Assembly (NCBI RefSeq): GCF_032854445.1
Contig: NC_088300.1
Location: 63,214,984 to 63,278,983, forward strand
Length of the DNA: 64,000 nt
Direction of reading: 5' to 3'
Source of the DNA: Liolophura sinensis
Taxonomy: Eukaryota; Mollusca; Polyplacophora; Chitonida; Chitonidae
Positions 2,736-62,556 of this stretch are shown here, piece by piece; the stretch's first letter is position 1, and the number at the start of each line of letters is the position of its first letter. Position numbers and translations under genes: made by a program. The notes under the pieces were generated by a model. It ran no database searches. It had not been told where the DNA came from and saw only the letters and a program-made list of their open reading frames with translations.

Positions 2736-3820
2736 GGTGAATATCACACGGATCTCAGTAACACCATGCATGACTCGTGCATTTTGGCGGATGTCAGTAA
2801 CGCCACGCGTGACTCGTGCATTTTGGCGGATGTCAGTAACGCCACGCGTGACTCGTGCATTTTGGCGGATGTCAGTAACGCCACGCGTGACTCGTGCGTT
2901 TTGGTGGATGTCAGTAACTCCATGCATGACTTGTGCATTTTGGCGGATGTCAGTAACACCATGCATGACTTGTGTATTTTGGCGTATGTCAGTAACACCA
3001 TGCATGACTCGTGCGTTCTGGCGGATATCAGTAACTCCATGCATGACTCGTGCGTTCTGGCGGATATCAGTAACTCCATGCATGACTCGTGCGTTATGGC
3101 GCATTCAACTTACACTATGACTTGTGTGTTATGGCGGATGTCAGTAACACCTTGCATGACTCGTGTCATAAGGCGGAGATCAGTAACACCATGACTTACG
3201 TGTTATGACGGAAATCAGTATCACCATGCCTCGCGAGTTATGACGCATATCGGTAACACTATGACACATCAGTGTTGGCGGATATCCGTAACACTATTAC
3301 TGTCAGTAGCACCGTGACTCTTGCGTTATGTCGGATAGGAATAACACCAAGACCCATGCTTTATGACAGAGATCAGTAACACCATGACTCGCTCGTTATG
3401 ACGGATATCAGTAACACCATGACTCGTGCGTTATGGCGGATAGGAGTAGTACTATGACTCCAGTGTTATGGCGGATGTCAGTAGCACCATGACTCCTGTG
3501 TTATGGCGGATGTCAGTAACACCATTACTCCTGTGTTATGGCGGATGTCAGTAACACCATGACTCTTGCGTTATGTCGGATAGGAGTAACACCAAGGCTC
3601 GCGCTTTATGACAGAGATCAGTAACACCATGACTCGTGCGTTATGGCGGATGTCAGTAACACTATGACCCCTGTGTTATGGCGGATGTCAGTAACACCAC
3701 GACTCGTGCGTTATGACGGATATCAGTAACACCATGACTTGTGCGTTATGACAGAGATCAGTAACACCATGACTCGTGCGTTATGACGGATGTCCGCAAC
3801 ACCATGACTCGTTCGCTGGT
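2736..3820. repeat. minisatellite, 39-bp units grading into 35-bp units
   Basis: Tandem copies of a unit like catgactcgtgcattttggc plus ggatgtcagtaacacc. The first block (to about 3110) has 39-bp units with an extra atgc. From there the unit is about 35 bp and more variable (ttatggcggat instead of ttttggcgg). Because 39 is divisible by three, long frames stay open on both strands in the first block. Confidence 0.9.

Positions 3821-4352: not shown

Positions 4353-4406
<54 letters not shown>
4353..4406. repeat. (GA)n microsatellite with related flanks
   Basis: About 27 GA repeats. The flanks (cacatgagcgagcctg, ttatggggacc, cccataaaacg) are related to those of the GA tract at 20209-20242. Confidence 0.9.
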
Positions 4407-4408
<2 letters not shown>

Positions 4409-4509
4409 TTGTGTTTGGTGTTTTATGGGGACCTAAGACCGTCCTGTGACCTGGACTGTGGGGACTTCACGGTTTATGGGGACCTCTCATTTGGCCCATA
4501 AAACGTTTG

Positions 4510-5841
4510 CGGTATTTTTCGGCTGTAAACAGAGCAGCCTGCCATATAATTAACGGAAAGGTACTTTCTTGTAATTGTATTTGCTTTAAATTATTAAATA
4601 ATGCTGCTTTGGATGATTTAACCCCATTAACCCTTTATTTTATAAAATGTGAGAGTTGTCCCCCTTGGATAACTTTGACCACCAGGCTGCTGCATTTCTC
4701 GATCACATAGATGATAAAGAAGGCGCGAGAAATGAGGTAGATGGTTATTTGTAATTTTTTTCTCCGTATTATGTAGATGTAGTATATGTAGAGTGGTTTC
4801 ATTGTGTGAAGTTGATCATAATGCAGACAAACTGTTGTTGTTATACCCTTGCCCGTGCTTTATATACGTAAAATGACAAAATTGTTGTTGTTGTTGGACA
4901 TTACTTATGTCTGAGGGGACGGGTTGGCACTACTGTCCATATTTAACGGCTTAAGTTGCAAAATGGAAGTCTATGAATAAAATGATTTCTTATGTTTCTG
5001 GTGTGTGCAAATGTCAGTCTGGTGTAATTTGCATATTTAATTCAGTCTTGATCTTATATTCTTCGGATTAAGGACACGCTTATGAATAGATTTCCTCTAA
5101 ATGAGGATATGGTGCGTGTGTTACAAAGTGATTTGTACTTGAATTTGGTATTTCCTACGAACAAATGTGCAAGAAAAGGATTTTTATATTGATATTATTA
5201 CGATTATTATATTTATAGTTATACTTTCATAAATGCACAAAAACAACACGTTTACTTTCAAATGTATTTAATAGACATATGTCACATCTCCATTTAGTGC
5301 ATATTAATGCACAAATAATGTGTCGAACTTCCATTCCAAGCTGAGGTAATTCCAAATATTCAGGATACAATATTTTCAAATGTCTCTTTTGCTTTAAATC
5401 AAAATTCTTGCATATGAAGTTTGAATGCGAAAGGTCTTCCAGCAGGCCCTGAAATACAAACTTTTCATGTGGATTAATGGGGATAGGAAATTTAATATCG
5501 CTGTCATCTGTTTAAATCCTTCCGACTCTTTTCTTCAACAGTTTTGTATCACAAATCCAATACCGCTTTTTCACTTTTTAAAAGTATCTCTTTCACCTTC
5601 CACATCTGTAATGTTGCTTGCGAGGGCAGTTAAGAAGAGGACAAAATGTGCGATGAAACCACTCCGTTCATTTCTTAAACATTGCGACACATGTGAAAGA
5701 TATCAGGAATTGTTGAATTTCAAATTACTGGAGAACATGAAGTATATATCAAGAGGGGTTAATTCCTGATATTTTTTGTGATGCTTTGGTCTGTGTTACG
5801 ATGTACAAATTATTTGCCGTTGATGTATCTTTAGATAGACA
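4510..5841. other. 5' flank of the fusion gene
   Basis: No repeat of note and no clear TATA box or initiator that I would defend. An open frame of 114 codons (5425-5769) shows no family resemblance. The promoter and 5' UTR of the fusion gene probably lie here. Confidence 0.4.
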
Positions 5842-8800
5842 ATGGCATCCAGACGACCAAAGCGTAAATGCAGACTTCAGACATCAGAAAAGTACAGCCC
5901 GTTGACTAAGGCCCTAGGCTCTGGCAGGGACCAAGAGGGTTTTGAGGTCAGATATATCAATGGATATATTGGTGAGGAGGGGTTGCATATTTGACATTCT
6001 GAATAGCTAATGTAAATCCACCACTGACTTCTGTTTATTACCTGCATTTATAATTGTTACTTTTAATGCTAAAACATTATTATACTAATTTAAAATCATT
6101 GTTTTGCAGTCTTGTCAGTATAAGATGCAAAAAAGTTAAACTGTTTGTTTGTTTCGTTGGAGGTACGTATGTTACTTGTGTTATTTGTATTAATTTTGCA
6201 GGGCATGGAGTATTTGCTTCACAGAAATTTAACACGGGAGATTTCCTCCTGGAGTATAAGGGAGACTTAGTTTCCAGAAAGGAAGGAGAAAGACGAGAGG
6301 CACAATATACCCCGACTAAAGGAAGTTTTCTGATGTTCTTTTCCTACGATGGAAAGAGACTGTGGTGAGAAATCGCAATGTAAATGTACCATGCAAAACA
6401 AATCGTTTTTGAAATAAAACTGACACAGTGTGCATGTGTTTGAAGTTTTATTATGTAATACTGCATAACATTTTTTCAGTGGATGGTTTCATATGTAAAG
6501 TTTTTATTCCTTTCATAGCGATAGTCCCTATAAGGTCATTAACGACAGACATTATCAATATGGCCCATAAAGCCCACCAAACTATCAAAACTTTGAATCA
6601 AAGTAATTAAAAGGTATTTTAATGTTGTTTTCAATGGGCTTTTTTCTGATGCTTTTAAATTATGTGATTTCATTTTAAAAGTTTCTTCAGTCCAAACATG
6701 AAGTATTAACACTTATTTGTTACTTATTATCTACAAATACTTACTGTGTCAGTTATAATGGGTTTTTTTCTTGATCGTTTTTTTTTATTATTTTTTTTTA
6801 AATACAAAGTATGGATGGAACAGAGGACCCGTTTGATACAAACATGGCAAGGATGATCAATGACGAGGGAGAAAATCCAAACTGTGTGATGAGGGCCATT
6901 TCATTTCTTGGACGACCCCGTCTGTGCCTGTTTGCCCTAAAAGACATCAATATTGGGGAAGAATTAAGATATGATTATGGAGTGGAAGATCTGCCTTGGC
7001 GATTGGTAAATCTTCTGTGTTTTTTAATTAGAAACATTTAGACCCTATAATGTATGTTTATTCTCTGGGACTTTTTTGGAAAGTTCCAAACCTTGTACCC
7101 TATTAGGAATATAGTCTCACCGTTGACTTTTAGGTTTGAACCACTCAGGTATTTAGTAATTATCTAACGGGCTGGGGAAAAAATACATTAGCAGTATTGT
7201 CCAGTATGTCTTGGAATGTAATGAAGAGAGGCTTACAATAATCTTTCCAATTTTTGGTTTTACTCTTCATTATCTCTCAGGAATCCAAGCGGAAGTCACT
7301 AAGAAGGTAAGACAAGTAAACGTGTCCTAAGTGTAATGCGTAACACAAGTTTGAAAGAAATTATTGTTTTTATGTTCAATTTTTCAACTGTTTTCGGCTA
7401 AAATTAAACTTCCACTGTTAATATAATTTCTTGCTCTGGCCTATTCCACTCATATAATAAACAAAGTACATGTACTGTTATCTATAGTAGTTTGATCAGA
7501 ATTTTAGTACATGTAGTTTTCCACGTCTTGTTTTCAGAAATTCATCTTTAGATGAATTGACCTTCTGTGGCCTAAACAAGGTGAGCCACATGTGTATGAT
7601 GCGTTTAAATTTTGTGTTTACTAATGGGCAGATTATACACCTTAAACATGCAACATAATGTGCAAACCATTGTCATAACAGATTTATAATACTTCTCATG
7701 TTTATGTTAGTCTCTAATGTCTGAAAATATGAACGTTAACTCACAGATGCTGGTGATATAATGTTGTTCTTGACAAATCTTAGAATACAATGTGTGTTCA
7801 TCACTAATGCATTGATATAGGCTAACAAAAACAGTTCAATTTGCCTTCAATAATTGCAGCAAGCTTATCCGCTTCAGGTAGAAAAGGACGGTATGGGACA
7901 TATTTTACTAGTTATTTTAGTACGAATGGCCGCGTTTTCATTTTTAAGTTTATACGGCTTATTTGGGTAAGCTTTTCTAACAGCTTACACACCAATGCTT
8001 CACTTAACCCGTATTTGGTCCTGTTTACAATTTGTTTCATTAATACCATTTTTATTCATATTGTGTGAAAAGTTACGACCAATTCAGACAATTTGTTACA
8101 CTTTTGAACACTTCGCCTTTATCCCAAAATTTATGTAATTGGAAATAAAATAAATCTGATGTCTTGAGTAACCAGTCAGCCTGTAGTTTAAACAGACAAT
8201 ATTTTATTGCAGGATCAAATGTCATTTGTCCTTTGGCTTGATTTGACACATGCTTGATTTCATAAATGTAAACTGAAACTTTTGAAATTGTGTATTTTAA
8301 AAACGTTTACAATATGGGTCATTAAATGTTATTACTTTAGGTGGTTTTGTTATCCTTACAAATTTCAGGAAACAACAAAAAGTTGGTGGATGTGAGAAGT
8401 GAAGAGGCTGATGTTCGTCATACAGGTGTTGGGAGAGAAACCGAGAGAGCAAGTGCGGTGACAGAACAAACAGGCTGTGACATACCATGTCATGCAGATC
8501 AGATTTCCTGTGTGCCTGGTATGGGGAATAGTTATACTATAATATTTATTTATTGATATATAATGATAATAAGCGTAATGACCCAGAAGCCTTTCAGCAA
8601 TGCGGCCGCTGTGAGTTCAAATTCAGCTCATGCTGGCTTCCTCTCCGGATGTAAGTGAGAAGGTCTGCAGCAACCTGCGCATGGTCGTAGATTTCTGCCC
8701 GGTTTCCGGTCACCATAATGCGGACAGCTGTCGTATAAATGAAATATTCTTGAGTACGGCATAAAGCACCAGTCAAATAGATAAATAAATATAATGATAA

Positions 8801-11800
8801 TATGCCTTATAGCTGTGCTAGAAGCTTTTAGCTTTGGTTTCCTAAAAACTTTCAGGTAACAGGGAAAAGATTGTTGAAGTGGAAAATGCATATACATTGA
8901 CACAAGCATGTACGGATGAATTGACAGCAGATACACAAGTAGTCAAACCTTTGGATCAGACTTTTGTCAAAAGTAGGCTAAGTTGTGAAATGTTTATGTG
9001 TACACTTTTGGATTCTTAACTTGTATCATGCATTAGCTTTGTTTTATGACTGACTGGTTTTTGACACCATAATCAAATTTACTCTGTTAAGTTTATGGTT
9101 GGAGAAAAGCGGAGTAAACAACTATTCTTTTGATAAGTATATTTATCAGTGAAAGCACTGTGTGCTTTAAAGCAGTTTCTGATGTACACTAATAATTTCA
9201 GAGACAGCCTTTGGAAGTGAAGAAGTTGGGATGAAAACATACACGGATGGAGACACGGAAACTTCAAAATTGGCTTTTGTGACAGGGAATGGTGAAATGC
9301 TTCAGGAGCCTTCAGGTACATTAACAAGCAATGGTGATGACGCGACACCTGTAATTGAAAGGATAGTATTAGTTTGAATGCCCTACATATCATATATTGT
9401 CCGTGGTTTGCATATAAATTGCGCAAATAATTAGATCTTAATGCAGACAACAGAAGATTTTACAGACGCTTTGTGATGATGGCTTACAAGGAAATTTGTT
9501 TTACCAAAAGTCCACTATAATTAACAACCCATGACCAGAAGTGCTCAACAGATTATGAACTCTTTGTTATAGAGGCATGAGCAACAGATGTGTGACCACC
9601 CATGATTCCTAAGTGATGTGTTCATAACTATATGTAGGTGTTATGATTTTATAATATGGTAGTGATGCTGTCACAAACTATGGGCGTGTGAATGGTTGTA
9701 CCTAATAGGAGCGCTTTCATTTCTCACTTTCTTTCAGTTATGGTTAATTCGCTCCTTTTAGACTTTAATCATTGGGAACTTTGGTCATTATTGGATATAT
9801 TTATTTGTTTAAAATTCCAGAGACCGCACAAGAAACTGTGATTGTGGAAGGTATAAAAGCTTGGATGGATGGTGTTGAGGTGCCAGTAGATATTGCGAAT
9901 ACAGAACTTAACTTGGCAAAGAATTCTGATGTCTCAGGTACACATGTAGTCCATCAATGATTTTAATGTTTCCCGCATGAAGTTTTGGATTTGCTTGTTG
10001 TTTGTTCAAACAACGACTGACGAGAGCTGTTTAACTGTCGCTGTTGAATGACAGGGTAAGAGTTAAAAAAATTACATACCAGACTAGATGCACATTTAAT
10101 AGATGTATCAGTGGAGGTGGTGTAAATTGATTAGATCGTTTTATTTTTTGTAAACATTACAGAGAACAAAGAAGTGATGGCTGTGGAAAGTCAAGAAGCT
10201 GAAAGAGCAAGCGCGGTGACAGAACAAGCAGGCTGTGACATACAAGGTTACCCTGACCAGAGTTCCCATGTGTCTGGTATGTGGTGTACTAATATGATAA
10301 TAATAATATGACTAATATGACTAATTATTTGTTTTGGTAAGTGCAGACATAGGGACAAATATATGGAAACGAGTGAGGCAAAAGTCGATATCAAACGTGA
10401 CTGTGTCCAAAATCAAGTGTAATCATGGTAATGTGAATTGTACGCCAACATAAGTGTATTGTTAGATTGCTATTAAACTTTGTGCACCAGTGAGAACGTC
10501 ACAAATTATGATATGCTTTAATAGTTTCAGGGCTGATACTTTTGAGAAGTGTTAACGGAGAAATCGATACATGCACGAATGGAGAGACTTTGGGAATGTC
10601 TGAGGTAACAGCGGATGCTGAAATACATCAACTCTTGAAGAAGACTTCAGGTGTTTTAGGTAATGGAGATGAAACACGCGTAATTGAACGCGTTCTGTTA
10701 GACTGGATGCCTTATTTGTCTTGGGTTTACCATCCTAACTTAACATTGCATAATTTAATGTTAGGGTAAAAAGCAGAATATTTGCAAGTTTTGCATTGAT
10801 GGGTTTAAAAGAAATCAATAATAGGCACCAAGATTACTTCCATGTCCGTCTCTAGTTTAATAAGGTTAGACTCCAATGTTAAGCTATAATATTGACGACT
10901 CGGTGACGGCAAGATGATAAGTTTGTTTGTTTAAAGTTTCAGAGAACACACAAGAGGCTGAAAGTATTGGAGGTGAAGGGGCTATGAGTGTTGGAGGTGT
11001 AGCAGCTTGGGTTGATGGACTGTCAGACAGAGTTGAGGTCTTAGCAGACATATCTTTGAAACAGACGTTTGATGTCTCAGGTATTGCTATTAACGTTTAT
11101 GTTTTTAGTTAAGTTTTTTGTTATGTCTTAAGTGCATGTGTTTTATGCACATCAGGCCTGTGATGTGGAAGAGTTGTGATTTGATATTACAGGGAAATAC
11201 TTTCTAAATTTAAATTTGATTGTCCTGGCATAGAAAAGTAGTATTTTTATGAGTTTGATATAAATCCAAAGCAGAATTAAAACAATAATGTTGAATATAT
11301 TAAAATGTTATCCAATTTTAGAAAAGAAGATAATGACGGTTGAAAGTAAAGATTTTAACGTGGGATTAGTAGATGAAATCAGTGCTTCAGACGTATCTGA
11401 CGATGATTCGGACTACATCCCAGCAAGCTCTGATGAGGACTCCAGTGGCAACTCTGAAGTTTTCCCCCAGCTGGTAAGACGTTGACCTCACAGTGCCAGG
11501 TGATGCATGGGCAGAAGTTGTTTTTAGAGTAATCAATTTAAAATTTTCGCCATCTTTTAAACTGGTTTATGCCTTGTTAATGTATAACAACAACCATTGT
11601 TTTGGGAAGAGATAACGAGACACGATTAAATATATTATGTATTGTAGGTTCCATGTGATTGCAGACTTGACGTTTGTGAATGTTGTTTTAGCAAAATATC
11701 GCATGGTAATGGTACATAAAATTTATTTCTCATTTAGAGTCCTGTTGGTCTGAAGAGAAAAGCTGCTCACGATGATCCTGACAAACAAAAAAGCAGAAGT

Positions 11801-14800
11801 GTGAAGACAGGTATTATTACAAACTTTTACTGAAATATTCCAGCAATTATAAGTTTAGATGAGTTTTTTAAAGAGCGCATCTTCAGCACAATTTGTACTG
11901 AAATTATTCTTAATCTTAAAGGTCTTGGAAATAAGTTATTACCAGCTTCGGAAAACGAATTTCTGTAGTTGTGACATCTGCCCGGTAGTTCGTTACACGG
12001 AATAGATCCAACTGTCAAAACAGCATCTTGCTTGTCATTGGTAATGGGCATGAGTCTTTATGTATAGTACTTTAGATAGCAATTTTCGAGGAGGTTAAGA
12101 TATAAGATGATGTTAAAAGTTGTTTTTCATGATCTGGATTTATATTATTTTTATGCAGATGTTTGATATTTGCAGTGCTTTCATGACTAAATTTTGTTGT
12201 TTCAGTGTTTTATAAAAGTTTATATTATTCTCTGTTACAGATATCACAAAGGTCGTGGAAAACTCAAAGCTAAGAGGTAATAGTCTTCTGCAACTTGTAA
12301 TCAAAGGTACAGGACTGCATGAAGACTGTGTCACATCTATAGCAGAAAAAAAACAGAACTATTCATACGAACCATAAAAGCTACTGAAAACTTTAACCAT
12401 ATGTCCTCCAATACCTCCACATGCACTGTGCGTTTAACATAAATGTGGGTTTTGTTATAAGGCCACAAATTTCACTGATCAGATCTTAAAACACGTACCG
12501 CTATGATATTTGAATTAATCCTTTACTGTTTAAAATGTTGAATGTCTTGCACTGTTCTTCACAGATTATGCCTTTTGTATTTTCAGTCCCAAGTGTTCAA
12601 AAAAACACTGGGAAGCGAGTGTACGACAAAACCCAGGCCTGTTACTATTGCGGTAAACTAGTGAAAAAACTGGCACGCCATTTAGATACTTGTCATAAAG
12701 ACGAATCACTAGTCGCTAAGTCATCTGCATCGAAGGGGAAGGCAAGGAAATGTCTAATTAAACAGCTACGTTTCCTGGGAAACTTTGAGCATAACATCAA
12801 CGTTCTAGCTAAAGGTGAAGGAGAACTGATTGTTGTGCGACGGGGAAAGGAGTGTCTCCCTGCGACGGCCTATTTACCCTGTAAGTTTTGTCTTGGATTC
12901 TTCACCAAGAAGGAACTTTGGAGGCATGTAAGTTCCTGTGACATGAAAGGGGTTGACTGTGAAGAAACTGATGCTGATGCAGTAAAAAGTGGGAAATGGT
13001 TGCTCTTAGGCTCGGTGTGTCCACGATACGAGCAAGAAGATCTCATACAGTTTGTATTAAGCACGCTAAGAGATGATCATGTTGCTGACGTTGTAAAGAA
13101 GGACAACTTCATTTTACAACTTGGCAACAGTAAACTCCAGAAACTGGGAGTAAAGAAAGCCGCTGTTGTAAGAGAGCAGATGCGACTAGCAGCACGTTGT
13201 TTGATAGAGCTTCGCAAGCTTACGGAAAGACCAAGTGCATACATGTCTGATTTCCTTAACCCAGAATCATTTGATCTTCTTGTACTGGCTGTAAAGAATG
13301 TCTGTGTTCAAGCGGAACAGAGGTCTATGACTGGTTCAATCAAATTTGAGAAGCCCGCAATAGCTCTGAAAATGGGACAGGTGTTGAAGAAGTTGATTTG
13401 TCTTAAAGAGGGGTGGACTATCCGAAACAAAGACTGTCATGGAAAAGAAGAGGCGAGTGATTTGCTGAAGTTGTATCACCGAGAATGGTGTGATAAGATA
13501 AATTCAATTGCCTTCCAAACGCTTCGGGAACGAAAGTATAACAATACTGAACTATTGCCTCTAACAGAAGATTTACTGAAGCTGAAAACCTACCAAATTG
13601 CACAGATGAAAGTACTTGTGCAGCTGCTAAAATCTAAACCATCAGGAGACGTTTGGAGAAAGCTGGCATTAACAACACTTGGTCGAATAAGCGTTTTTAA
13701 TAAACGAAGAGAGGCCGAAGTTGGAGAAGTGCAGCTATCATTGTACCTCAAGTCTAGGAGTTCAACCAGTGTGAACAGTGACCTCTTGCAAAGTCTGACA
13801 GAGTTTGAGAGAAAACTTTGCAACAAGTTAGTATTTGAACTACAAAGTGTTTCAGCCCTGTTGTATTTTAAATCTTAATCAGTAATAGTAATAGGGTTGT
13901 TTATGCAATAAGATATTTTTGCTTTTGGATACATCTGTGCTAGCATATTTTGAACCCAATACCTATAGAATATATGATACAATAACACATGTATAAACCT
14001 ATTAAAAATCGTGTGTATTTAGCTTGATGCTGTAACTCTGCTGGTCGCTGGTTGCTGGTTACTGGTTGTTACAAGAGAAACAAAACAGCTTTGTTTCTTG
14101 CAATGCAAGTTGTCAAGGCCAGTAATCTTTTCTGTGGAGTGATATTAAGATATCTGTATCACCTGGAAGTTATTAGTGCTTGATTATAACTTCAGTCTTG
14201 TATTCTTTAATTCATATTTATATTTAAGCATGCGGCACTTGGAAGTTATTGGGAAACAAAACCGCAAAGTTCCTATCGTCTTGACGGAAGACATGGTTGA
14301 GGCAGTTGACACTCTCATCAGCTACCGGAAATGGGCAAAAACCTCTGAGGATAATCCTTTCTTGTTTGCCAGTGGGGGAAAGTCTCACTTGAAAACTTCA
14401 CAAGCTATGAAGATGGCAGCACATGATGCTGGTTTGTCACACCCTGAACTGATTACCAGCACGAAACTAAGAAAGTACATGGCAACAGTGTCACAGGTAT
14501 ACAGCACGAGATTGCCATTGAGTTGGTTTCACCTTTGATTTTCTGCACTGCAAACATACAAGTTTGTGCATTAAGGAATTTTTAGTTCTCCGTATTTTGA
14601 TGCAATGTGCTGGCCAAAAATTTAATTTATATCCCTCTGGCTATGGGCACAATGGTGATATTTTTAATACAGTATGTAAAATCTTATATGAAAACATTTA
14701 TTACGGTCCAAACCACAGAAAGGGGCGTGATTGACTCGACCCATGAAAGTGATTGTCATCGTAGAAGTGGAAAACTTTAACACGATTTATTTTGTTCATT

Positions 14801-17800
14801 TCAGGTCATTAGCCTAACAGAGAATGAACTTGAATATCTGGCCAATCACATGGGTCATGATATTAGTGTTCATCGAAACTTCTACCGTTTACAAGATTCA
14901 ACACTTGAGCTGGCTAAAGTAAGCAGACTGTTACTGGCTGCAGAACAAGGGAAGATGGGTTCATTTGCTGGGAAAACATTGAACGATATAACATTTAGTG
15001 GTAAGTAATGCCCATTGTTTAGTTTAATGAGGTCCTTTCCATATGACTCAAAAGTCATATGTAGTACTGACTTACTGCTTGTCTTATGCTTGCTTAAAGA
15101 ACAGTCAAATCAAATAAGATAATTGTGAAATAAACCTATAGATTGAGATATAGACCTCTTCAAAGCTATCTGGACTGCTTCCTTTCAAACCAACAGCCAT
15201 TGATCAAAACTGCCAGGTGTTGATAAGGAGCGTCTACTCATTTAACCTTGGCATTGACTTAGACTTGTAAGTTATCCTTCTTTGATGCATGGTAGGGTTA
15301 TTTTCCTCCACTTATTTCTGGCTGCTTGGATGTAACAGAAATGTTTTCAGTTGGATACGAAGCGGTGTAATCAAGAATCAACAATTTTCATTAACGATAT
15401 CACATTATGACGATATGATTCAGCTCCAGTCATAATTAAATAAATAAATAAAATAATGTAAATAGTTAGCTTAACCACAAATGACAGACAGGTAACAAAC
15501 AATTCAGAACTGCTGTGGTACATTAGCCACAAATTACAGTGAAAGTGAACACACAATTCAGAACGGTTGTGGTACCTTAGCCACAAATTACAGTGAAAGT
15601 GAACACACAATTCAGACCGGTTGTACATTAACAACAAATTACAGCGAAAGTGAACACGCAATTCAGAACGGTTGTGGTACCTGAGCCACAAACTACAGTG
15701 AAAGTGAATACACAATTCAGAACAGTTGTGGTATATAACTTAGCCACAAATTATAGTGAAAGTGAAAACAATTCAGACCGGTTGTACATTAGCCACAAAT
15801 TACAGTGAAAGTTAACACACAATTCAGACCGGTTGCACATTAGCCACAAATTACAGTGAAAGTTAACACACAATTCAGACCGGTTGCACATTAGCCACAA
15901 ATTACAGTGAAAGTGAACACACAATTCAGAACGGTTGTACATTAGCCACAAATTGCAGTGAAAGTGAACACACAATTCAGAACAGTTGTGGTATATAACT
16001 TAGCCACAAATTATAGTGAAAGTTAACACACAATTCAGAACAGTTGTGGTACCTTAGCGAATTATTATAGGATACACAATTGGATTTTTTGGGGGGATAC
16101 CTCCAATGCTGTGGTAGTAATATAGAATTGAAACATTGAATGTCTGTAAATTAAATTTTGTGCTGTTACTTTTCTGCTGAAACAGATGTTCCAAGACCTT
16201 GTCTGTACAATATAAATGGTTTTTTATTTCAGATTTTCCGGACTACTGTGAAGATGATTGTGGAGGTAAGCGGTCATTTTTCACAATAATTTGTGTAAGT
16301 GCAAATGTGTATTTGTTTCATTGTTAATGTATTTATAATGCTTTTTCGTCGTTTGTTTCATTGTCTTTCAAAAAGTTTTCTTGCTTGTCTACGTAATGCT
16401 TTTCCAGGGCTAACTAAAAGTATTCTACTTCTGTGGTATGGTATGGGCTGTGATTATTCATGTATGTGCGATTTATTATCACCTGTGACTCAATTAGCCC
16501 AAAGCTTCAAGTCTCAACTGCGGCTCGTGTTTATTTTGTTAGACGTGCAAGTTCACTGATGATGGATTTGGTGTTCATTACCCTTTTGACACTAAGATAT
16601 TATGATGTGTTTTTTTCAAAACTCCAGCCAAGGCTGAGTGGGATGGAGACGCACCTTTCTACTAGTTTTATATCCTTATTAAACATTTACCCTTCTGGTT
16701 TTATTCACAAACAGATTCTTCCGGAGAAGTTCAGGCTCCAGAGATGGAGAAGTTAAGCAGCCAGCTGGCCCCAATTACCCCCAAATCTGTGACAGATGAA
16801 ACGACTCATGCTCCATCTACATCTGTGGCAGATGAAACAACTGGTGTGTTAATGTTTTGTTTGGAATCTCGGTCATATCAGTTGAAAGAACGGATTGTCG
16901 TGCAGGACATCTTAGCCTCGCTGCTTCACGACTGTGATTCAGCTGTCGACATTCACTTGTAAACCAACTTGGTTGCAACCTTTGTGACGTGATAGATGAT
17001 TTCCGTGGATCGATCTTAAGAATATCGTTGGCAAACAAATACTAATGTAGAAACGATACCTCAGACGACATAATTTTGTGAAGTAAGTTTTTTCAGTAAT
17101 CATTCTAAAAAGTGTGAGTTTCTCCCAAGCACTAAAGCCACAATAGTATTTCTGCACGATATGAACAGGACTTTGTTTAATAATGAAATATGTTCAGTTC
17201 AATCTTTTTAGTTCAAACTCAGTTGCCTATTTTATGAGGCTTCATGGGACGACGTAATTATAAATGATTTCTTGTTCCGATGCTTACATGTACTGGTATC
17301 TATCATTTGTATTTTCATGTGTTTTCATTTATTCTCTAGACAGTGGTGATATCAGTGACATTGTCATGGCAGGGAACACCAAAATGTACAAAGGTAAAAA
17401 AAAACACTTTTAGTTTAATGTTTAGCCAGATAATCAAGTTATATCATTTATCAACCTAACTGAAACAAGGGCAAGGGAACTGCCGAACACGACAATATAT
17501 TACATGCTCACTTTTGTTTATGAGGACTTTCAGAAACTTGGAAAGGTATAAGTTTCCTGTTTGCTTTGTGCAGTTTCATCCGCCAGTATTTATTAAACTT
17601 GACCAGCGTAGAATACATGTATTCTGGAATAGGTGTAAAATAAAAATCACAAAAAATAAATATACGAATATATAAGTTATTTATCTCACAGTTGCATGTT
17701 GTGTTTTAGGAAAGGCTGTTCAACGCACAGAATGGAGAAGTGATGAAATGAAGGCCATCTCAGACTTGATTGATCAGTCAGTACAGTCGAGGAAACCTCC

Positions 17801-17951
17801 CAGAAAAGCTGACGTTATTAGCTGCCTGAGTTCTTTTCCGCAGCTTAAGGCACGCAAGTGGATTCATGTTAAATTTCGTGTTTGGGCAGAGGCGCAGAAA
17901 ATGATAAACAAAAAAAAATCTGTAAAAGCCTCTTTTCTGAGCCATGATTAA
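5842..17951 (+). CDS. SET domain / zinc finger / tyrosine recombinase / SANT-like fusion protein (23 coding exons)
   Basis: A spliced model predicts 1293 residues. Coding exons: 5842-5971, 6202-6364, 6810-7005, 7281-7306, 7538-7580, 7860-7890, 8369-8518, 8856-8972, 9202-9315, 9821-9937, 10163-10276, 10531-10650, 10943-11080, 11322-11473, 11738-11810, 12241-12276, 12587-13826, 14229-14496, 14805-15000, 16233-16265, 16715-16843, 17340-17393, 17710-17951. Every intron is GT-AG and the summed length (3882 nt) is a multiple of three. Domains seen: SET about 44-162, acidic/serine-rich 487-537, basic patch 538-561, zinc-finger-like motifs 592-610 and 672-691, recombinase core about 940-1110, SANT-like 1214-1293. 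The start ATG has A at -3 and G at +4. Proteins of this general architecture occur in fish and invertebrates; whether it is a domesticated host gene or a mobile element that kept introns is open. Likely nuclear and DNA- or chromatin-binding (inference). The exon 6 and exon 17 boundaries are least certain. Confidence 0.85.
6202..7005 (+). CDS. SET-domain exons 2-3 of the fusion gene (KMT5A-like)
   Basis: Exons 6202-6364 and 6810-7005 encode residues 44-163. Exon 1 ends in phase 1, and its last base plus GG restores a glycine at the start of the SET motif GHGVFA. Further SET motifs are the EYKGDL strand, the RPRLCLFALKDI strand and the C-terminal GEELRYDYG (Tyr152 and Tyr154), where the family places its catalytic tyrosine. 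The usual NHS motif is replaced by IND near residues 114-116, as happens in atypical SET proteins. No post-SET cysteine cluster follows, which agrees with a KMT5A-type SET fold. Lysine methylation is expected from the family. Target and activity are unknown, and the weakened NHS motif leaves catalysis uncertain. Confidence 0.85.
8369..11080 (+). CDS. duplicated phase 1-1 linker exons 7-13 of the fusion gene
   Basis: Seven short exons (150, 117, 114, 117, 114, 120 and 138 nt) each start and end in phase 1, so each can be skipped or duplicated without shifting the frame. They fall into three types. Type A (8369-8518, 8856-8972, 10163-10276) begins like GNNKKLVDV or ENKEVMAVES. Type B is 9202-9315 and 10531-10650. 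Type C (9821-9937, 10943-11080) ends in DVSG. The first A exon and 10163-10276 share ERASAVTEQ followed by a GCDI stretch. The B copies stay similar past the donor into the intron. This indicates a genomic tandem duplication of an A-(A)-B-C block. The encoded linker is hydrophilic, with no domain I recognise. Confidence 0.75.
8570..8790 (+). repeat. SINE family A (tRNA-derived) copy
   Basis: Body ctcatgctggcttcctctcc, then gtataaatgaaatattcttg, gagtacggcataaagcacc and an AAAT tail. It is inserted in the intron between exons 7 and 8 of the fusion gene and is absent from the duplicated exon block, so it probably arrived after the duplication. Confidence 0.75.
11322..11810 (+). CDS. acidic/serine-rich segment and basic NLS-like patch (exons 14-15)
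   Basis: Exon 11322-11473 (phase 1 to 0) starts with a type-A-like stretch (KKIMTVESKDF) and then encodes a very acidic serine tract, SDVSDDDSDYIPASSDEDSS. Exon 11738-11810 (phase 0 to 1) encodes KRKAAHDDPDKQKSR, two basic clusters separated by an acidic spacer, in the style of a bipartite nuclear localisation signal. Such acidic Ser tracts are frequent CK2-site-like regions in nuclear proteins (general knowledge; not shown here). The acceptor at 11737 could also be used two bases later, but only the stated position keeps the frame. Confidence 0.7.
12587..13826 (+). CDS. zinc-finger and recombinase N-terminal/box I exon 17
   Basis: This is the largest exon, residues 574-987. It contains two C2H2-like motifs. 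The first is C592-X2-C595 with H605 and H610 (CYYCGKLVKKLARHLDTCH). The second is C672-X2-C675 with H687 and C691 (CKFCLGFF...LWRHVSSC), a C2HC variant. A helical core-binding-like region follows, then the recombinase box I arginine in SVFNKRREAEVGEV (R957/R958). The open frame continues to a stop at 13878. I end the exon at a GT at 13827 because joining to 14229 in phase 2 continues the recombinase fold directly, whereas the read-through tail resembles nothing. A truncated read-through isoform remains possible. Confidence 0.8.
14229..15000 (+). CDS. tyrosine recombinase catalytic exons 18-19 (boxes II and III)
   Basis: Exons 14229-14496 and 14805-15000 encode residues 988-1141. Visible catalytic landmarks are TKLRKYMAT (box II arginine R1068; the usual first His of HxxR is Thr1065), HMGHD (H1094) and VHRNFYRL, whose Tyr1103 is the candidate nucleophile. 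With the box I arginine from the preceding exon, R, R, H and Y are all present, so the site looks catalytically plausible. Tyrosine recombinases cut and rejoin DNA through a 3'-phosphotyrosine link. In animals such domains come from Crypton, DIRS and related elements. I see no DIRS/Ngaro reverse transcriptase nearby, so a Crypton-like origin is the better fit (inference). Confidence 0.85.
15480..16070. repeat. minisatellite in intron 19 of the fusion gene
   Basis: About ten copies of a 50-60-bp unit like gccacaaattacagtgaaag tgaacacacaattcagaac ggttgtggtacctta. It fills half of the intron between exons 14805-15000 and 16233-16265. Confidence 0.88.
17710..17951 (+). CDS. C-terminal SANT/Myb-like exon 23 of the fusion gene
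   Basis: The last coding exon (residues 1214-1293) reads TEWRSDEMKAISDLI and later RKWIHVKFRVWAEAQ. This is a three-helix pattern with conserved tryptophans in the style of a SANT/Myb-like DNA-binding segment. It is joined to the recombinase by three short exons (16233-16265, 16715-16843 and 17340-17393), all phase 1-1 and hydrophilic. One of them carries a short imperfect duplication (SVTDETTHAPSTSVADETT). The stop is TAA at 17949-17951. Assignment rests on pattern only. Confidence 0.65.
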
Positions 17952-17966
17952 AATGTCACCACGTTC

Positions 17967-17972
17967 AATAAA
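17967..17972 (+). terminator. poly(A) signal AATAAA of the fusion gene
   Basis: A canonical AATAAA lies 16 bases after the TAA stop at 17951, followed by a GT-rich stretch near 17975-18020. This supports 17951 as the true 3' end of the coding region. Confidence 0.65.
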
Positions 17973-18110
17973 TGTATTGCTCACACAGATTTTGGTATGT
18001 TTTGCATTCCTGTATTTTGCTGTATGTGGGCCATTTGTTGAGTTGTTTGAATTTGAGTAAAATATGGCACGGGAATATGATTCTTACACGATGGATTACT
18101 GATGGGGTGA

Positions 18111-18310
18111 ACTTTATTTGACTGGAATTTCGTGCCATACTCAAGAATATTTCACTTATACGACGGCGACCACATTATGGCGGACGGAAATCGTGCAGTG
18201 CCCTGGGGAAACCCACGACCTTCAGCATGTTGCTGTCGGACATTCCCACGTCAGACCAGAGATAGAGATCCAGTCCGAGCTGGAAGACTAAGGAAGCCAT
18301 ACAAAACAAC
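18111..18310 (-). repeat. SINE family A copy, antisense
   Basis: Reverse-complement tail (tttatttgactgg, ccatactcaagaatatttca) followed by cttatacgacggcgacc and gggaaacccacgacc. It lies just downstream of the fusion gene's poly(A) signal. Confidence 0.7.
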
Positions 18311-18367
18311 TTCTACTTCTATGATCTACTCAGCTTCTGTGCCGACCGAACAGCAGCCACATTCATT

Positions 18368-18455
18368 TACTTAAAATTGCATTTAACGCCGAACTCAAGA
18401 ATGTTTCACATATTATGACAGCTGTCAGTTTTATAGGTGGAGAAAAGCGGAGTGT
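18368..18455 (-). repeat. SINE family A fragment, antisense
   Basis: Only the 3' end is clear: catttaacgccgaactcaag followed by aatgtttcacatattatgac. Degenerate. Confidence 0.45.
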
Positions 18456-18904
18456 ACGCATTGAACCATTGCTCCTTGCCACGTGTTATAGGAAGTTATA
18501 GACATCATGCTTGTCCATCACTTGGGCAAACCAATACGGCACTTCAACGCCACAGACTTATTTTGCTCACACCTAATTTTGGGAAACAGAAAGTGATATG
18601 GTGAAAAAATATCTTTTAATAAGAAGAAAGAAGGGAAAATCTAATTTTAATCACTTCTCCATCTGCTTAAGTTTTAAACGCAACACTTTAATTTTAAGAA
18701 TGCAAAGTGCAAATAACCCAAATTGAGATGACATGCTGTTAAATATGAATCATTTGAAGTTGTAAATATTTGACTAATTAATTTTTTTCCATGCCTCTAC
18801 CTTAATAGACAGGTTAATATTAAATTTATAGTTTTTAAGAGACCAACAATTGTATCCCCAGCTAAAGGACCGAAATCTCATCCAAACTAAAATGGTGTAG
18901 GCCT

Positions 18905-19410
18905 ATTTCACCCCGTCACAAAACTCCTCTATCGGAAGACCCCATAAAAGGTTTCTCTAATAATTAACCCCTCAAACTCCACTCTCTCTTGCCCAACAAA
19001 ATTAAATCTCACTTTAAGGTGCCCATAAAACGTCTCTCTCAGAAGACCCCATAAACGGTTTCTCTGATAATTAACTCCTCAAACTGCTCTCTCTTTTGCA
19101 CAACAAAATTAAGTCTCACTTTAAGGTGCCCATAAAACGTTCCTCTCGGAAGACCCCATTAACGGTTTCGCTAATAATTTACCCCTCAAACTTCACTCTC
19201 TTTTGTCCCACAAAATGAAGTCTCATTTAAAGGTGCCCATATAACTTCTCTCTCGGAAGACCCCATAAACGGTTTCTTTGATAATTAGACCGACAAATTC
19301 CACTCTTTCGTCCAACAAAAGCAAGTCTCCCTATGAAGTCCCCATAAAACCTCTCTCTTCGAAGATCACACAAACGGTCTCTCTGATAATCGGTCCCACA
19401 AACTCCTGTC
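18905..19410. repeat. about 106-bp tandem repeat, about five copies
   Basis: Repeated blocks of cggaagaccccataaacggt, ttctctgataattaacccc, tcaaactccactctctcttt and aagtctcactttaaggtgcc. Spacing between the gaccccat anchors is about 106 bp. Confidence 0.8.
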
Positions 19411-20206
19411 ATTCCTGTAGCTGGAGGTCAAGTAAATATTACTATTTGCCTACAAAAACTTCTGCTTGAGAAAATCCTTTGTACATTCTCCATAAAATAT
19501 TCATCTGTCTGACTTCAACAGCAGCTTATTTCGGTTCAGTCAACTCTTCTCATGCATGTACTTTCCAAGCTGGTCCTAACGTGGAAATCAAATTTGTGCG
19601 GTTTTGTTTACTATAAATCATGGCTTAATTATAATAATGATGTTAGTTTGGATTTCTAAGTAGCATGCTGAAGTTAAAATACAGAATATGAAATACACTG
19701 TAAGGTAAAAATATGTAACATTTCTGGAAAAATCCGTGTACAAATTCTGTTTGACTCTCCACAAAATGATTTCACATTTGGAAAGAATTACAGAACTATT
19801 ACGTATATATAAAGTATTAGAAAAATCCACAAAATTGTTTGATAAAATGATAAATTTTAATGTTTCAAAATAACTTTCCAAATACTTTGCATAGTACATC
19901 ATGCGTGTACCTTTTTTGGCCCATAAATTCTACTCTCTTTTTATGTACCCCTGACAATCTTTCTCTAAAAGCTCCATAAACTGATTTCTCTCATATGAGT
20001 TCCCACTGAAGCCCCTCTCTATAAAACACAAAACACTTTAATTGATGACTGAAATGAAGAGAGAGTTAACCCCCTTCAATGAAATTTTGTCTAACGATCA
20101 CCTTGCAGATATTTTCAACTTAAAATGAATTGTGTCAGTATATAGCATAATGGTGTCCCCATAATCCGTTCTTTGGAGGAATGGCCCATAAACCATGGAA
20201 TCCCAG

Positions 20207-20208
<2 letters not shown>

Positions 20209-20242
<34 letters not shown>
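20209..20242. repeat. (AG)n microsatellite
   Basis: About 16 AG repeats followed by cttgaaataagttgaaatta and cacatgagcgag, nearly the same flank as at 4310-4350. Confidence 0.85.
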
Positions 20243-20299: not shown

Positions 20300-21990
20300 G
20301 ACTACCGGTAGATATCAAAACTGTTTCACTAAGGTAACATTGGTAATTACCAAGACTGTTTTACGAATGTCGAATGTAATACCGATAGCTATCAGAATGA
20401 ATGTTTCACTAATGCAATATAGGTTGTAATCAAGGCTGTTTTATGTATGTAATACCGATAGCTATCAGGATGAATGTTTCACTAATGCAGTATAGGTTGT
20501 AATCGAGGCTGTTTTACGTATCTAATACCGATAGCTATCAGGATGAATGTTTCACTAGTGCTGTATAGGTTGTAATCAAGGCTGTTTTATGTATGTAATA
20601 CCGATAGCTATCAGGATGAATGTTTCACTAATGCTGTATAGGTTGTAATCAAGGCTGTTTTATGTATGTAATACCGATAGCTATCAGGATGAATGTTTCA
20701 CTAATGCTGTATAGGTTGTAATCAAGGCTGTTTTATGTATGTAATACCGATAGCTATCAGGATGAATGTTTCACGAGTGCTGTACAGGTTGTAATCAAGG
20801 CTGTTATATGTATGTAATACCGATAGCTATCAGGATGAATGTTTCACTAATGCTGTATAGGTTGTAATCAAGGCTGTTTTATGTATGTAATACCGATAGC
20901 TATCAGGATGAATGTTTCACTAGTGCTGTACAGGTTGTAATCAAGGCTGTTTTATGTATGTAATACCGATAGCTATCAGGATGAATGTTTCACTAGTGCT
21001 GTATAGGTTGTAATCAAGGCTGTTTTATGTATGTAATACCGATAGCTATCAGGATGAATGTTTCACTAATGCAGTATAAGTTGTAATTAAGACTGTTTTA
21101 CGAGTGCAGTACTGGTAGATATATCAAGATTCTTTTATCATTGCAGTACCGGTAATTATCATGAATGTTTTACGAATGCAGTACTGGTAGATATATTAAA
21201 ATTGCTTTACCAATGCAGTACCAACAATTATCAGGCCTAATACAGTAGGACTAACAGTATCTATCAAAATTAAATTAGGAATCCGGTATTATTACGGTAG
21301 TTATCAACATTGTTTCACTGAGGCAGCATCGGTAGCTATCAGGACTATTTTACTAATACTGTATATCTGTAATTACCACCAATGTTTTACTAATGCAATA
21401 CCTGTATTTATCTACACTGTTTTACTATATGAGAGTATCTATCAAGACAGTTATCAAGACAGTTCCACAAAGGTTAGTAGCACGGTGCCGATAGTTATCA
21501 AGACTGCTTTACTGTGGCAGTACATGTTGCTATCAAGACTGCTTTATTAATGCAGTACAGGCAGAAATAAAGACTGTTTTACAGTTTGAGTATGTGTAAC
21601 TATCAAGACTCCTTTACCGTGGGAGTACAGATAGCTATCAAGGCTGCTTTAGTGTGAGAGTACAAGTAGCTATCAAGAGTGCTTTACTGTGGGAGTACAG
21701 GTAGAAATGAAGACCGCTTTACTGTGAGAGTATTTGTAACTATCAAGATTCCTTTACTGTGGGAATACAGGTAAGTATCAAAACTGCTTTACCGTGGGAG
21801 TAGAGTTAGAAATAAAGACTGCTTTACTGTGGGAGTACAGGTAGAAATAAAGGCTGCTTTACTATGGGAGTACAGGTAGCTATCAAGACTGCTTTACTGT
21901 GGGAGTACAGATTGGTATCAAGACTGTTTTAGTATGGGAGTACAGGTAGCTATCAAGACTGCTTGAGTATGACAGCATCAGTAGTTATCA
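20300..21990. repeat. satellite array: 73-bp units plus diverged about 36-bp units
   Basis: About ten very similar 73-bp units (20380-21080) with anchors ccgatagctatcaggatgaa tgtttcacta and ggttgtaatcaaggctgttt. On both sides, and down to 21990, the array continues as diverged units of about 35-37 bp (gctatcaagactgctttact gtgggagtacaggta). The 73-bp unit looks like a dimer of the shorter one that was later homogenised. Confidence 0.9.
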
Positions 21991-31800: not shown

Positions 31801-34800
31801 CTGAGTACTCAGGTAGACGTTAATTTATAGATGACGTTTACTGTTAAGCATTTTACAGAGTTGTCATTATGGGAAATCGTTAATAATGCAGCATGCTTTA
31901 CAAAGGATGTGCAGAAGGATTGTGCGAAGGCTGTAAGAGTACCGCTATCGGAGGGTAAAGATGAGAAACAACTGTCTTATTATAAAATAATTTAAATACA
32001 TATATTTTAACAAAACAGACATATAATACAACTGAAAATAATATACAAAACAATACAATATATATATATATATAGTATCTTACAGCCTGTGAATGTGTAA
32101 CGGGTTGACTGTAGCGAACGTGAGGCCGATCTGTCGATATAGGTTTCCTCGGAAATATACACAAGTCACTTTCAAAGTAAACTGAGACGAAATGTATGTA
32201 ATGGCACAAAGAGACAATGAGCGATACAAGCTCCAAAATAAAGTCTCCAAAATACAGCAAGTGACCAAACACATGCTCACAAAGTGCTCTGTACAGTTAA
32301 TTGAGTACAAATGACGAATGTCTAATGGCGTGAAAGCCGATATCTCCAAAACCAGTAAAATTGTTCACAGTGAATGAGAGTAAATTTGATTGCTCTCAAA
32401 TGTACTTGAGAAAATAACTGCTCAAAGCTCAAAGTGGACTTGAATGAATGGCTGCGACCTTCACAACTCCGTCGTTCATATATACAGACTAACGCAAAAG
32501 AAAATTCTGGGTGGTTTGATCGTAAACATGTTTACAACACCAAACATATTTTCCAGAATGTACACTCTATTTACAATGACTCTAAACTCCTAACACCGAA
32601 GCCTCGAGAAAGCTCGAGTGAATTACAGTGCAGGCTATAACGTACAAAGAGAGAAAAATCTAGGTCAGACACTGACACATAAAAAAATACAAAAATATAA
32701 TGCAATGTTCACAGACGGGGTTCATAACCAGGCCTATATCCCTCTGGTCGCAGTCAACTGTAAAAGTGGCATGTGATGGTGTGATACGTCTGTTACAGGC
32801 ATAACACAATATAATTATATACAGTCCTGGCTGTTTCGGTAGCCTGGCAATCGAAAGCTCGGGATCGGGTTCTGACCAATGAGGACGTGGGATCAAATCC
32901 AGCCCTCCATGGTAATTTTATTAATTATGATGTCACTCAAGGCAATGCTTTCGCCTCGAAAACAAGCTTGTGTAGTGGTGAATTTACAAACAATATGAAT
33001 CAGAAAAAGTATTCTAACCAAAGTTTCTTAGCAGAAATATAAACGTCAAGCACATCACTTTGTACAGCTTGCATAAAGACGAAAGGCAAGGGTGGCAGTG
33101 CGTACACAGTGACATACAGTGAGTTACACATATAATACAGACAGTAAATCAAAAGACTACAGTATAATTATCTTAATATTCTCTGATGCCACTGTTGCTA
33201 TTTATTATTTGTTATTATCAGTTTTACTGGACTCTACGAGGTTGTTGTGGTTGACTAAATAGATATGTCATATTTTCTATACATCTTTATTTCTATAGTA
33301 TAGTCTGCTAACCGAAGCTCATTTTGACAGAAATATTATTTCAAAGCGAACAAACCTGTTCTCCCAAAAAACCAGTTCCAGCGGCTACGTCTAAGATTTT
33401 GACGGTCTCTCTGTTTTCCTTGTAATGATCAGCCAACGCCTGAGCACAGATCGTGGGTCCGTTATACCGCCCTGGACACAAGTCCTACAAGGTTAGGAAA
33501 CGTGAAATTTAACATTGATCTGCCACAGACACAAGTAATACAAGAAAGGGTAGGAAACGTGGAGTTTTACATTGATCTGCCATAGACACAAGTCCTGCAA
33601 GAAGAGTAGGAAAAATGAAGTTTGATATTCATCTGCCCCAGACACAAGTCCTACAAAAAAGGGTATTTCTGGGTCTAGGAAATATGTGTGGATGTTAAAT
33701 GAAAAGCACATACGAAATGGGGAGTTCAAAAATGAGCTACCCTGGGCAGAAGTCCTTCAGAAACACGAAAAAAACGTGGAGTTTGACATTCATCTGCCTT
33801 AAGTACGCCCTACAATAGACATAAGATAGTGTACAGTTTGACACTGAACTTCCCTAAGCACGTTCTACAAGAAACACAAGGAAGTGAACCTTTTTTACAC
33901 TGAACAGCCCTAAACACAATTAATACAAAAAAACACCAAGAAATGTGAAGTTTAATGTTGAACTACGGGCTCGACATACTTAAATCATGCACTAACGATA
34001 TTACAATTGATTAAGGAAATTTTCAGCTGTTTACACATATCTGATTAATCAAAATAATCTTGATATTTACTTGACTCCTGTTTTACGCCGTACTCTAGAA
34101 TATTTCACTTATACGACGGCGAACAGCGTTATGGTGGGGTTACACCCGGGGGAAAACCACGACCCTCTACAGGGTTGGTGAAAGACCTTCCCACGTGCGG
34201 CCGGAGAGGAAGCCAGCATGAACTGGACTTGAACTCCCTCGGCCACGGATCGACTTAAGCATAGAATCAAAACAGTGATGTTAGACCTTACAAACAATAC
34301 TACAGCCAAAATGTGACCTATGGTAAAGGCAGCTATGTACGGGATGGAATTCTACAACTAAAATGTGAACTATGATAAACGCAGGTATGTTCCGGATGGA
34401 ATACAATAACAACATATGAATTATGGTAAACACAGCTATGTACTGGCTTGAGCACCAGAACCAAAATGTGAACTTTGGTAAAGGCAGCTATGTACCGGAT
34501 GGAATGCTAGAACCAAAATGTCAACTATGGTAAGGCAGCTATGTACTGGCTGGAACACTAGAACTAAAATGTGAACTATGGTAAAGGCAGCTATGTACCA
34601 GTTGGAATACTACAACTAAAATGTGAATTTTGGTAAAGGCAGCTATGTACTGGCTGGAAAACTAGAGCTAAAATGTGAACTATGGTAAAGGCAGCTACGT
34701 ACCAGCTGGAATATTAGAATTCACCAACTTTGAACTATGGCAAAGGTATCCATGTACCGGCTGGAATGCTGGAAGCAGAATGTGAATGTAAGGCAGCTAC

Positions 34801-62033: not shown

Positions 62034-62556
62034 ATGTTCAAACTGACGTTCTGGAGATGCCCCGTCAGGACTATCATCTCCCTGCTCATCGTCTTCTCGC
62101 CCTCCAGTGTGCTCCGTGTTAACTCACAGCTTCCTTGCCCGGATCATGACACCAAGTATGTCCGGGACCCGGACGATTGCACCCGCTATGTGGTCTGTGT
62201 GAACGGGCGAGCGTTCGTTATGCCGCCCTGCACTGCTTCCACGATTTGGTCCAACACCCTTCGGGCCTGTGTCCACTCGGGGTCGGCTCACGATGACTGT
62301 ACGTACGGGGTCCCGGAATCGCAGACCGGAACTACCGAGAAGGACACGGACTACCCTACCACCAGGGCGGCCACACCCACCCGGGAAGTTTCGCAAATAA
62401 CGACGAAAAATTACTGGACGTCTTCAATATATTTTCCCACGACGACCCGATCACCACCCCTACCGACGACCACTGCCCCTCCCCCACCCATCACGTCTGC
62501 CCCGGCCCCACCCGAGCCATCAGCCACGCCCTGGTCGGATCAGGGCAGCTTAAGAG
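62034..62556 (+). CDS. secreted peritrophin-A (CBM14) chitin-binding protein, first coding exon
   Basis: The ATG is followed by a hydrophobic signal peptide (about residues 1-31, core IISLLIVF). A CBM14 domain follows with six cysteines at C35, C49, C55, C66, C79 and C89; the spacing 13-5-10-12-9 fits the peritrophin-A consensus, and aromatic residues lie around YVVC. A Thr/Pro-rich low-complexity stalk (about 95-172, TTTxxPP-type runs) is a likely O-glycosylated mucin-like region. A good donor (AAGAG|GTGAGA) ends the exon at 62556 in phase 1. Without splicing the frame runs to 62651. Later exons are not recognisable before the window ends. Such proteins bind chitin in cuticle, gut lining or shell matrix (family knowledge). 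The exon is more GC-rich than its surroundings. Confidence 0.85.

Follow-up and report, generated by a model that had tools for sequence, protein, structure and literature searches.

A predicted SET and tyrosine recombinase fusion gene inside a probable GA-targeting, intron-rich transposon of the chiton Liolophura sinensis

We analyzed a stretch of 64,000 nucleotides from the chiton Liolophura sinensis (contig NC_088300.1, positions 63,214,984 to 63,278,983 of the forward strand; hereafter the window), which contains a predicted gene coding for both a KMT5A-like SET domain and a tyrosine recombinase (YR). The gene lies within a larger unit whose two ends recur in other copies in the genome and are both adjoined by AGAGA. 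We regard this unit with good confidence as an intron-rich YR transposon of 15.8 kb that moves at the DNA level, targets GA tracts and encodes the SET-YR fusion in one predicted protein of 23 exons. An earlier note on this DNA had proposed a 23-exon gene with closing phases and a product of 1293 residues, and rebuilding the exon chain from the sequence gave a model of the same length (5842-17951 on the plus strand, 3882 nt with the stop codon), in which all 22 introns have GT/AG borders and all phases close. From this predicted model we infer one transcript that spans SET and YR.

The KMT5A-like SET domain of the earlier note is clearly recognizable. Its spliced sequence matches the full Pfam SET profile (E 1.9e-17, 64 bits) and its 14 best matches in the PDB are KMT5A/SETD8 structures (E 1e-24 to 1.4e-22), followed by the next match at E 1.2e-17; the KMT5A-type match spans the SET domain plus its N-terminal flank. 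The NHS motif of the KMT5A family is not kept, and the window reads IND where the host KMT5A (C10:10141090) reads LNHS. Asp at the position of the host His was also found in the SETs of the related loci on C20, C10 and C4 described below and in a decayed SET at C3:2935708. This signature is common to four distinct YR-linked SETs and to C3:2935708, which speaks for a SET lineage of its own and against recent fusions. The domain can be described as histone-methyltransferase-like, with methylation of lysine 20 of histone H4 (H4K20) as a putative activity.

The recombinase had been described as complete. The motifs (box I, box II, GH) follow each other in the expected order: RREAEV with the box I Arg, GKQNRK with the Lys, LRK with the box II Arg, GH, and the Tyr. 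The distance from GH to Tyr is exactly 9 residues both in the window YR and in the relative on C20, equal to that in XerD (GH) and Cre (GW). Both Arg, the GH His and the Tyr are therefore in place as claimed, but "complete" is too strong a word: the box II sequence is TKLR in the window and RKMR at C20, so that the His of HxxR is replaced by Thr and Arg, respectively, while both Arg and the Tyr are kept, and the R-H-R-Y catalytic tetrad of the window YR is incomplete. Exon 18 alone scored 26.0 bits against the Phage_integrase profile (E 9e-6; cut-off 27.1) and the spliced recombinase 22.6 bits (E 1e-4). The C20 relative gave no match to Phage_integrase, no YR family was found in NCBIfam or PHROGs, and a PDB sequence search returned no match for the window recombinase and three matches, all with E above 1, for the YR of the C20 relative. 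Single-sequence structure prediction of exon 17 yielded a mean predicted local distance difference test score of 36.7, too low to be of use. Since motif order and the exact GH-to-Tyr spacing are repeated in the C20 relative at about 25% identity and the spacing agrees with XerD and Cre, we class the protein, in our judgement, as a tyrosine recombinase; it is a very divergent one. Genome-wide, with 150 out of 185 candidates scored, at least 82 Phage_integrase matches reached E 0.001, the window gene not being among them; these matches point to many other YR elements in the genome of L. sinensis. This genome comprises 609 Mb, and its mitochondrial genes, identified by eye, read under code 5 in the order nad2, cox1, cox2, atp6, which is typical of molluscs.

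Outside these two domains the protein is less readily interpreted. Two zinc-finger-like motifs, as claimed before, are visible in the sequence but reach only weak Pfam scores (E 0.06-0.65), and the proposed SANT-like tail was not borne out, the best Pfam match in the about 150 residues that follow the YR being DUF740 (E 0.47). Sequences related to exon 23 occur at no fewer than 8 further places. Exons 7-10 and 11-13 (8369-11080) show an apparent internal duplication with DNA likeness concentrated in the exons, and the peptides of the exon pairs 7/11 and 10/13 resemble each other (z 14.6 and 6.2, respectively).

The limits of the unit around the gene can be stated precisely: likeness between the window and other copies starts at 4407 and stops at 20208. 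A genome search with the element tips found at least 4 left ends and at least 8 right ends, 7 of which reach the tip; here and in the following, genome-wide counts of copies and ends are lower bounds. AGAGA, which has a background of 0.00175 per base in the window, adjoins every one of the 4 left ends and of the 7 complete right ends. The copies C11a and C11b have a common flank, so the complete right ends amount to six independent events. A longer GA tract is present at 7 of these 11; the left flank of C3 has just AGAGA in unrelated unique DNA, and the right flank at C11a/b offers only AGAGAGAG. By eye, the terminal sequences of the element are not inverted copies of one another.

Both end regions carry a short motif, TTTATGGG/CCCATAAA, that occurs 12 times in the 64-kb window, always inside the element, compared to 3.0 expected per window under a first-order model (maximum 7 in 40 samples). 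Three occurrences are at the left tip (two on the plus and one on the minus strand), one is intronic and eight, all on the minus strand, are in the right subterminal region, where six of the eight CCCATAAA belong to a 107-bp tandem repeat and are hence not independent. The exact two-motif pattern of the left end was found at 4 places in the genome, each a left end of this element family, and a reversed control pattern at 0. The YR is the only recombination enzyme recognized in the element; no reverse transcriptase (RT) or DDE domain was found in its 20 other open reading frames (about 79-126 residues; three overlap exons), and Rfam had no match in the window. The features are collected in Table 1.

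Table 1. Parts of the element and of its predicted gene, in window coordinates
Feature	Position	Strand	Description
Whole mobile element	4407-20208	+	15,802 bp; ends common to other copies
Left target tract, (GA)27	4353-4406	.	AGAGA adjoins the element
Right target tract, (AG)17	20209-20242	.	AGAGA adjoins the element
Left end with TTTATGGG motifs	4407-4510	+	motifs at 4422, 4473 (+) and 4495 (-)
Exons 1-3	5842-5971, 6202-6364, 6810-7005	+	KMT5A-like SET domain; Pfam and PDB matches
Exons 4-6	7281-7306, 7538-7580, 7860-7890	+	short linkers; splice sites and phase only
Exons 7-14	8369-11473	+	spacer, mostly phase-1 exons; internal duplications (7/11, 10/13); exon 14 acidic
Exons 15-16	11738-11810, 12241-12276	+	linker; splice sites and phase only
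Exon 17	12587-13826	+	two zinc-finger-like motifs; N-terminal recombinase portion with the box I Arg
Exon 18	14229-14496	+	catalytic part of the recombinase: conserved Lys, box II Arg, His replaced by Thr
Exon 19	14805-15000	+	GH histidine and catalytic-type Tyr 9 residues on
51-bp minisatellite	15471-16070	.	intron between exons 19 and 20
Exons 20-23	16233-16265, 16715-16843, 17340-17393, 17710-17951	+	C-terminal tail, no recognized domain
Right subterminal region	18920-20208	-	107-bp tandem repeats (18920-19390); 8 CCCATAAA motifs, 6 within the repeats

Eight other near copies were found (C30, C4a, C3, C11a, C11b, C4b, C11c and C4c), nine with that of the window. In the parts read (C11c and C4c in part), all eight have frameshifts, stops or deletions or are truncated, and the window copy is the only intact one among the nine. 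Near-identical intronless copies, which according to the earlier note would have reduced the gene to a transposon fragment next to a SET gene, were not seen. Instead, the near copies have kept the introns in the parts that they retain, which indicates that they arose at the DNA level. Exons are less diverged than introns in all eight comparisons of the window with another copy (for example 1.6% vs 2.4% for C30 and 11% vs 19% for C4c), the comparisons all sharing the window copy and carrying no significance test. The copy at C4:580100-593871 has lost the recombinase exons, and its SET exons are near identical to those of the window, with 3 amino acids changed over 197 codons. After the point that matches window position 18597, this copy holds some 4.4 kb of other DNA.

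Eleven flanks of 0.8 kb were compared, and likeness was confined to C11a/C11b (97%) and C30/C4a (76-85% per piece), with one further match of 28 bp between C11a and C4b. The flanks of C30 and C4a are pieces of one host repeat. As these flanks are 76-85% alike and the elements that they enclose differ by 3.1% over 8612 aligned sites, the insertions of C30 and C4a are independent of each other and postdate the host repeat. Another copy of this repeat, the third (C2:25945692-25946296), is element-free. Joining the C4a flanks gives a sequence that, apart from length differences, is collinear with this third copy and with the left flank of C30, where this site is empty. The repeat, which is GC-rich and bears GA tracts (further copies at C4:593928-594418 and C30:16566-16716 plus 31944-32203), was hit at two different tracts; judged by eye, its right part looks protein-coding. 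Duplication of a larger segment was rejected, since the flanks are either unrelated or much more divergent than the elements, with the exception of C11a/C11b, which look like one duplication. A viral carrier, considered in view of the GC-rich flanks, was likewise rejected: on inspection by eye, the open reading frames in the flanks resembled retrotransposons, a mariner and host repeats, and a viral_contigs search with the YR, a YR profile and the SET gave no match. Of the three readings offered in the earlier note, namely a chromatin-writing domain that directs the recombinase, a domesticated transposase and an intron-bearing mobile element, the last is strongly supported by the shared ends, the AGAGA at both ends, the unrelated flanks and the element-free host site; nothing requires domestication, even if no other copy was found intact.

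SET and YR are paired beyond this set of near copies. A genome search with the SET exons gave at least 10 matches at 9 loci, and at 5 of the 9 a YR lies downstream on the same strand (the window, C30, C4:635301, C10:2301001 and C20:382154); four of these five represent distinct families, down to about 25% identity. At C4:635301 the YR is located at 648.6-652.4 kb with mostly about 65% identity, and this older relative has kept SET, exon 14 (45% identity, E 7.7e-4) and exons 17-19 in order. The YR of C10:2301001 (2308.4-2310.0 kb) is decayed. At C20:382154 the YR is an open frame of 524 residues with about 25% identity, accompanied by a SET with one stop; it was absent from the result of the YR search and was found by looking downstream of its SET. 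For the older relatives on C4, C10 and C20 no ends were found, and the sequence read there has a single (AG)5 or (CT)5 tract, one of 10 bases on C4. The recombinases of the decayed C10 relative (C10:2308437-2310027) and of the C20 relative (C20:390341-391915) are without the two introns that interrupt the window YR, and this difference implies intron gain or loss within the family.

Selection was assessed by the ratio of non-synonymous to synonymous substitution rates (dN/dS) between the window and dead copies, comparisons that all share the window branch. Constraint on the recombinase is clear: exons 17-19 gave 0.28 against C30 (p 0.0015) and 0.20 against C11b (p 8e-5), and the recombinase of C4c gave 0.59 (p 0.004). 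For the whole gene, dN/dS against the broken C30 was 0.47 (Fisher p 0.008). Elsewhere in the gene the picture is mixed, and constraint on the SET is backed by the short C3 copy alone (0.13, p 0.004).

We propose that the encoded recombinase would pair the two ends through the AGAGA repeats and excise the element as a circle, by analogy with Cryptons and prokaryotic YR elements; for Cryptons, circle excision and insertion have themselves been proposed by analogy with prokaryotic YR elements (PMC3212892). By a like recombination the circle would be inserted into another AGAGA, often one in a GA tract. The encoded protein probably binds the TTTATGGG/CCCATAAA arrays that lie close to the two ends. 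The SET part most likely aids the element by marking or reading nucleosomes in a putative H4K20-like biology, and its benefit may consist in resisting silencing or in tethering the recombinase to chromatin. When intact, the element is probably autonomous.

Several observations weigh against a GA-targeting SET-YR transposon. The YR has no Pfam match above cut-off and no box II His, and a thin-profile hhalign comparison with XerC/XerD/lambda Int/Cre returned a probability of 2.6% (E 0.017), with 1 of 30 column shuffles scoring higher. The C30 insertion was not clean: its left tip is missing a few bases, and it is short of more than 110 bp of host sequence that lies between GA tracts and is present in C2 and C4a. 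Copy number is low, with at least nine near copies, and searches of the genome for ends and motifs revealed no short non-autonomous derivatives. Four of the nine SET loci are without a YR of their own, namely C4:582520, an internally deleted copy past whose right end lies a different YR fragment of 27% identity (C4:597077); C3:6996233, a truncated copy; C10:10141090, the host KMT5A with its NHS motif (600 bases read); and C3:2935708, for which no YR was found within 9.6 kb downstream, a stretch too short for exclusion. No significant constraint was detected between the window and C30 in the SET (dN/dS 0.85, p 0.69) or the middle exons (0.72, p 0.46), the SET of C4a differs by 3 non-synonymous and 0 synonymous changes, and the tail exons gave 1.20 (C11c) and 0.92 (C4b). 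Finally, SET and YR could be made as separate mRNAs.

The last point leads to the alternative that SET and YR are two adjacent genes that only appear fused in the model, which we consider unlikely. The fusion is known from the gene model, whose exons 4-6 and 15-16 are placed by splice signals only, and dN/dS lends the middle exons no support. Against a separation into two genes, SET and YR reside within one unit with shared ends, their order and strand are repeated at five loci, the C4 relative preserves the order of SET, exon 14 and exons 17-19, and the exon pairs 7/11 and 10/13 in the region between them are alike as peptides. Somewhat more doubtful is a passive spread, in which host recombination between flanking GA tracts would generate circles or fragments that re-enter GA tracts, with the YR as a bystander. 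GA tracts at 7 of the 11 ends read would be expected from such a process, as would the GA-rich nature of some flanks, which are themselves host repeats, and the loss of more than 110 bp between GA tracts in the C30 event. The bare AGAGA at the left flank of C3 and the AGAGAGAG at the right flank of C11a/b are short for homologous recombination, however, the end regions bear oriented motif arrays, the YR of the segment is under constraint and related SET-YR loci recur. That the window copy is a domesticated host gene, an element-derived chromatin regulator kept intact while its sister copies decay, is quite improbable, for even if it is the only intact one of the nine near copies and has a dN/dS below 1 against the broken C30, it still sits between full element ends in GA tracts and is only 1-3% from the dead C30 and C4a, as expected of a recent insertion.

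Regarded as a YR transposon, the element can be placed next to several known systems. HarbingerS and MuDR use DDE transposases. SETMAR is a primate SET fused to a mariner transposase, a single domesticated gene of the DDE type; both it and the window gene join SET to the recombination enzyme of a mobile element, but the window fusion is found inside a mobile unit. Fungal Starship elements are large, carry cargo genes and are classified by their YR; like these, the window element is a large eukaryotic YR element, but no second gene was recognized in it. Membership in DIRS or Ngaro was not indicated, as no RT match was found beside the YR in the open reading frames of the element that were tested. 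With Cryptons, the element shares the features of a DNA transposon moved by a YR, short direct repeats at the ends and no terminal inverted repeats (PMC3212892). In that source, fungal, oomycete and diatom Cryptons have 4-6-bp direct repeats at their ends, and for animal Cryptons neither terminal repeats nor a C-terminal domain were found. Unlike the animal Cryptons (A, I), the window element has AGAGA repeats, a length of 15.8 kb, 23 exons, an N-terminal SET, zinc-finger-like motifs and a tail of about 150 residues after the YR, and it differs from the Crypton R-H-R-Y tetrad by the Thr in place of the box II His (PMC3212892). Microsatellite targeting by a YR carrier has a precedent in endogenous nimaviruses, which have a YR and a C2H2 zinc-binding domain and whose carrier inserts specifically into the (TAACC)n microsatellite; these are large DNA viruses of crustaceans with another target repeat, and the text of PMC10871703 available to us describes no SET fusion. 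Mobile elements that have incorporated a SET histone methyltransferase gene are HarbingerS and MuDR of Phytophthora (cited in PMC12730594), which are oomycete elements, whereas here an animal YR element has SET and YR in one predicted protein. SET-carrying transposons are thus already known, and the window element is their YR-based animal counterpart. No report of a SET-YR element was found in the open-access literature, a search outside which preprints and most subscription papers lie.

The element may also bear on gene expansions in other animals. KMT5A-like genes number 65 in Hydractinia, 24 in Hydra and 61 in sea urchin (PMC10368294). Most of those in Hydractinia and of the expressed ones in urchin have an N-terminal SET, and the longer genes have other domains, with C-termini conserved between both animals (PMC10368294). 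In Hydractinia they are dispersed and highly divergent, and 13 are activated early; Nematostella has a single KMT5A gene (PMC10368294), so the expansion is not general. The genes are reported there as predicted H4K20 methyltransferase genes, and the words "recombinase" and "integrase" are absent from the main text of PMC10368294. Their likeness to the window gene, which we compared by description only, lies in being KMT5A-like with a mostly N-terminal SET. We hypothesize on this descriptive basis that elements of this kind may explain the KMT5A-like gene expansions in Hydractinia and sea urchin. On balance we lean towards the broader view of an ancient, animal-wide class of YR elements with a KMT5A-derived SET of Asp signature, of which the KMT5A-like genes of Hydractinia, Hydra and urchin, some of them switched on at genome activation, would be members or derivatives rather than ordinary H4K20 methyltransferase genes. 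Similar uncharacterized proteins exist in fish. Should the "expanded KMT5A genes" seen at zygotic genome activation of Hydractinia and during urchin development prove to be mobile elements, those data would have to be read differently. If our interpretation of the window holds true, the mobile elements of animals would come to include a YR transposon that targets a microsatellite and has a histone-methyltransferase-like domain built in. This suggests that the very recombinase of a transposon can include a chromatin writer or reader. Recombination tools, too, could be built on a YR with an AGAGA core.

Other features of the window lie outside the element. Long minisatellite arrays are found on both sides of it, at 2749-3812 and 20374-21964 (39/35-bp and 73/140-bp units). 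An open frame of 345 residues on the minus strand (37818-38855) encodes a Tc1/mariner-type transposase (HTH_Tnp_Tc3_2, E 8.8e-14; DDE_3, E 1.5e-11), and an open frame on the plus strand (62019-62651) with a chitin-binding CBM_14 domain (E 1.7e-9) is probably part of a host gene.

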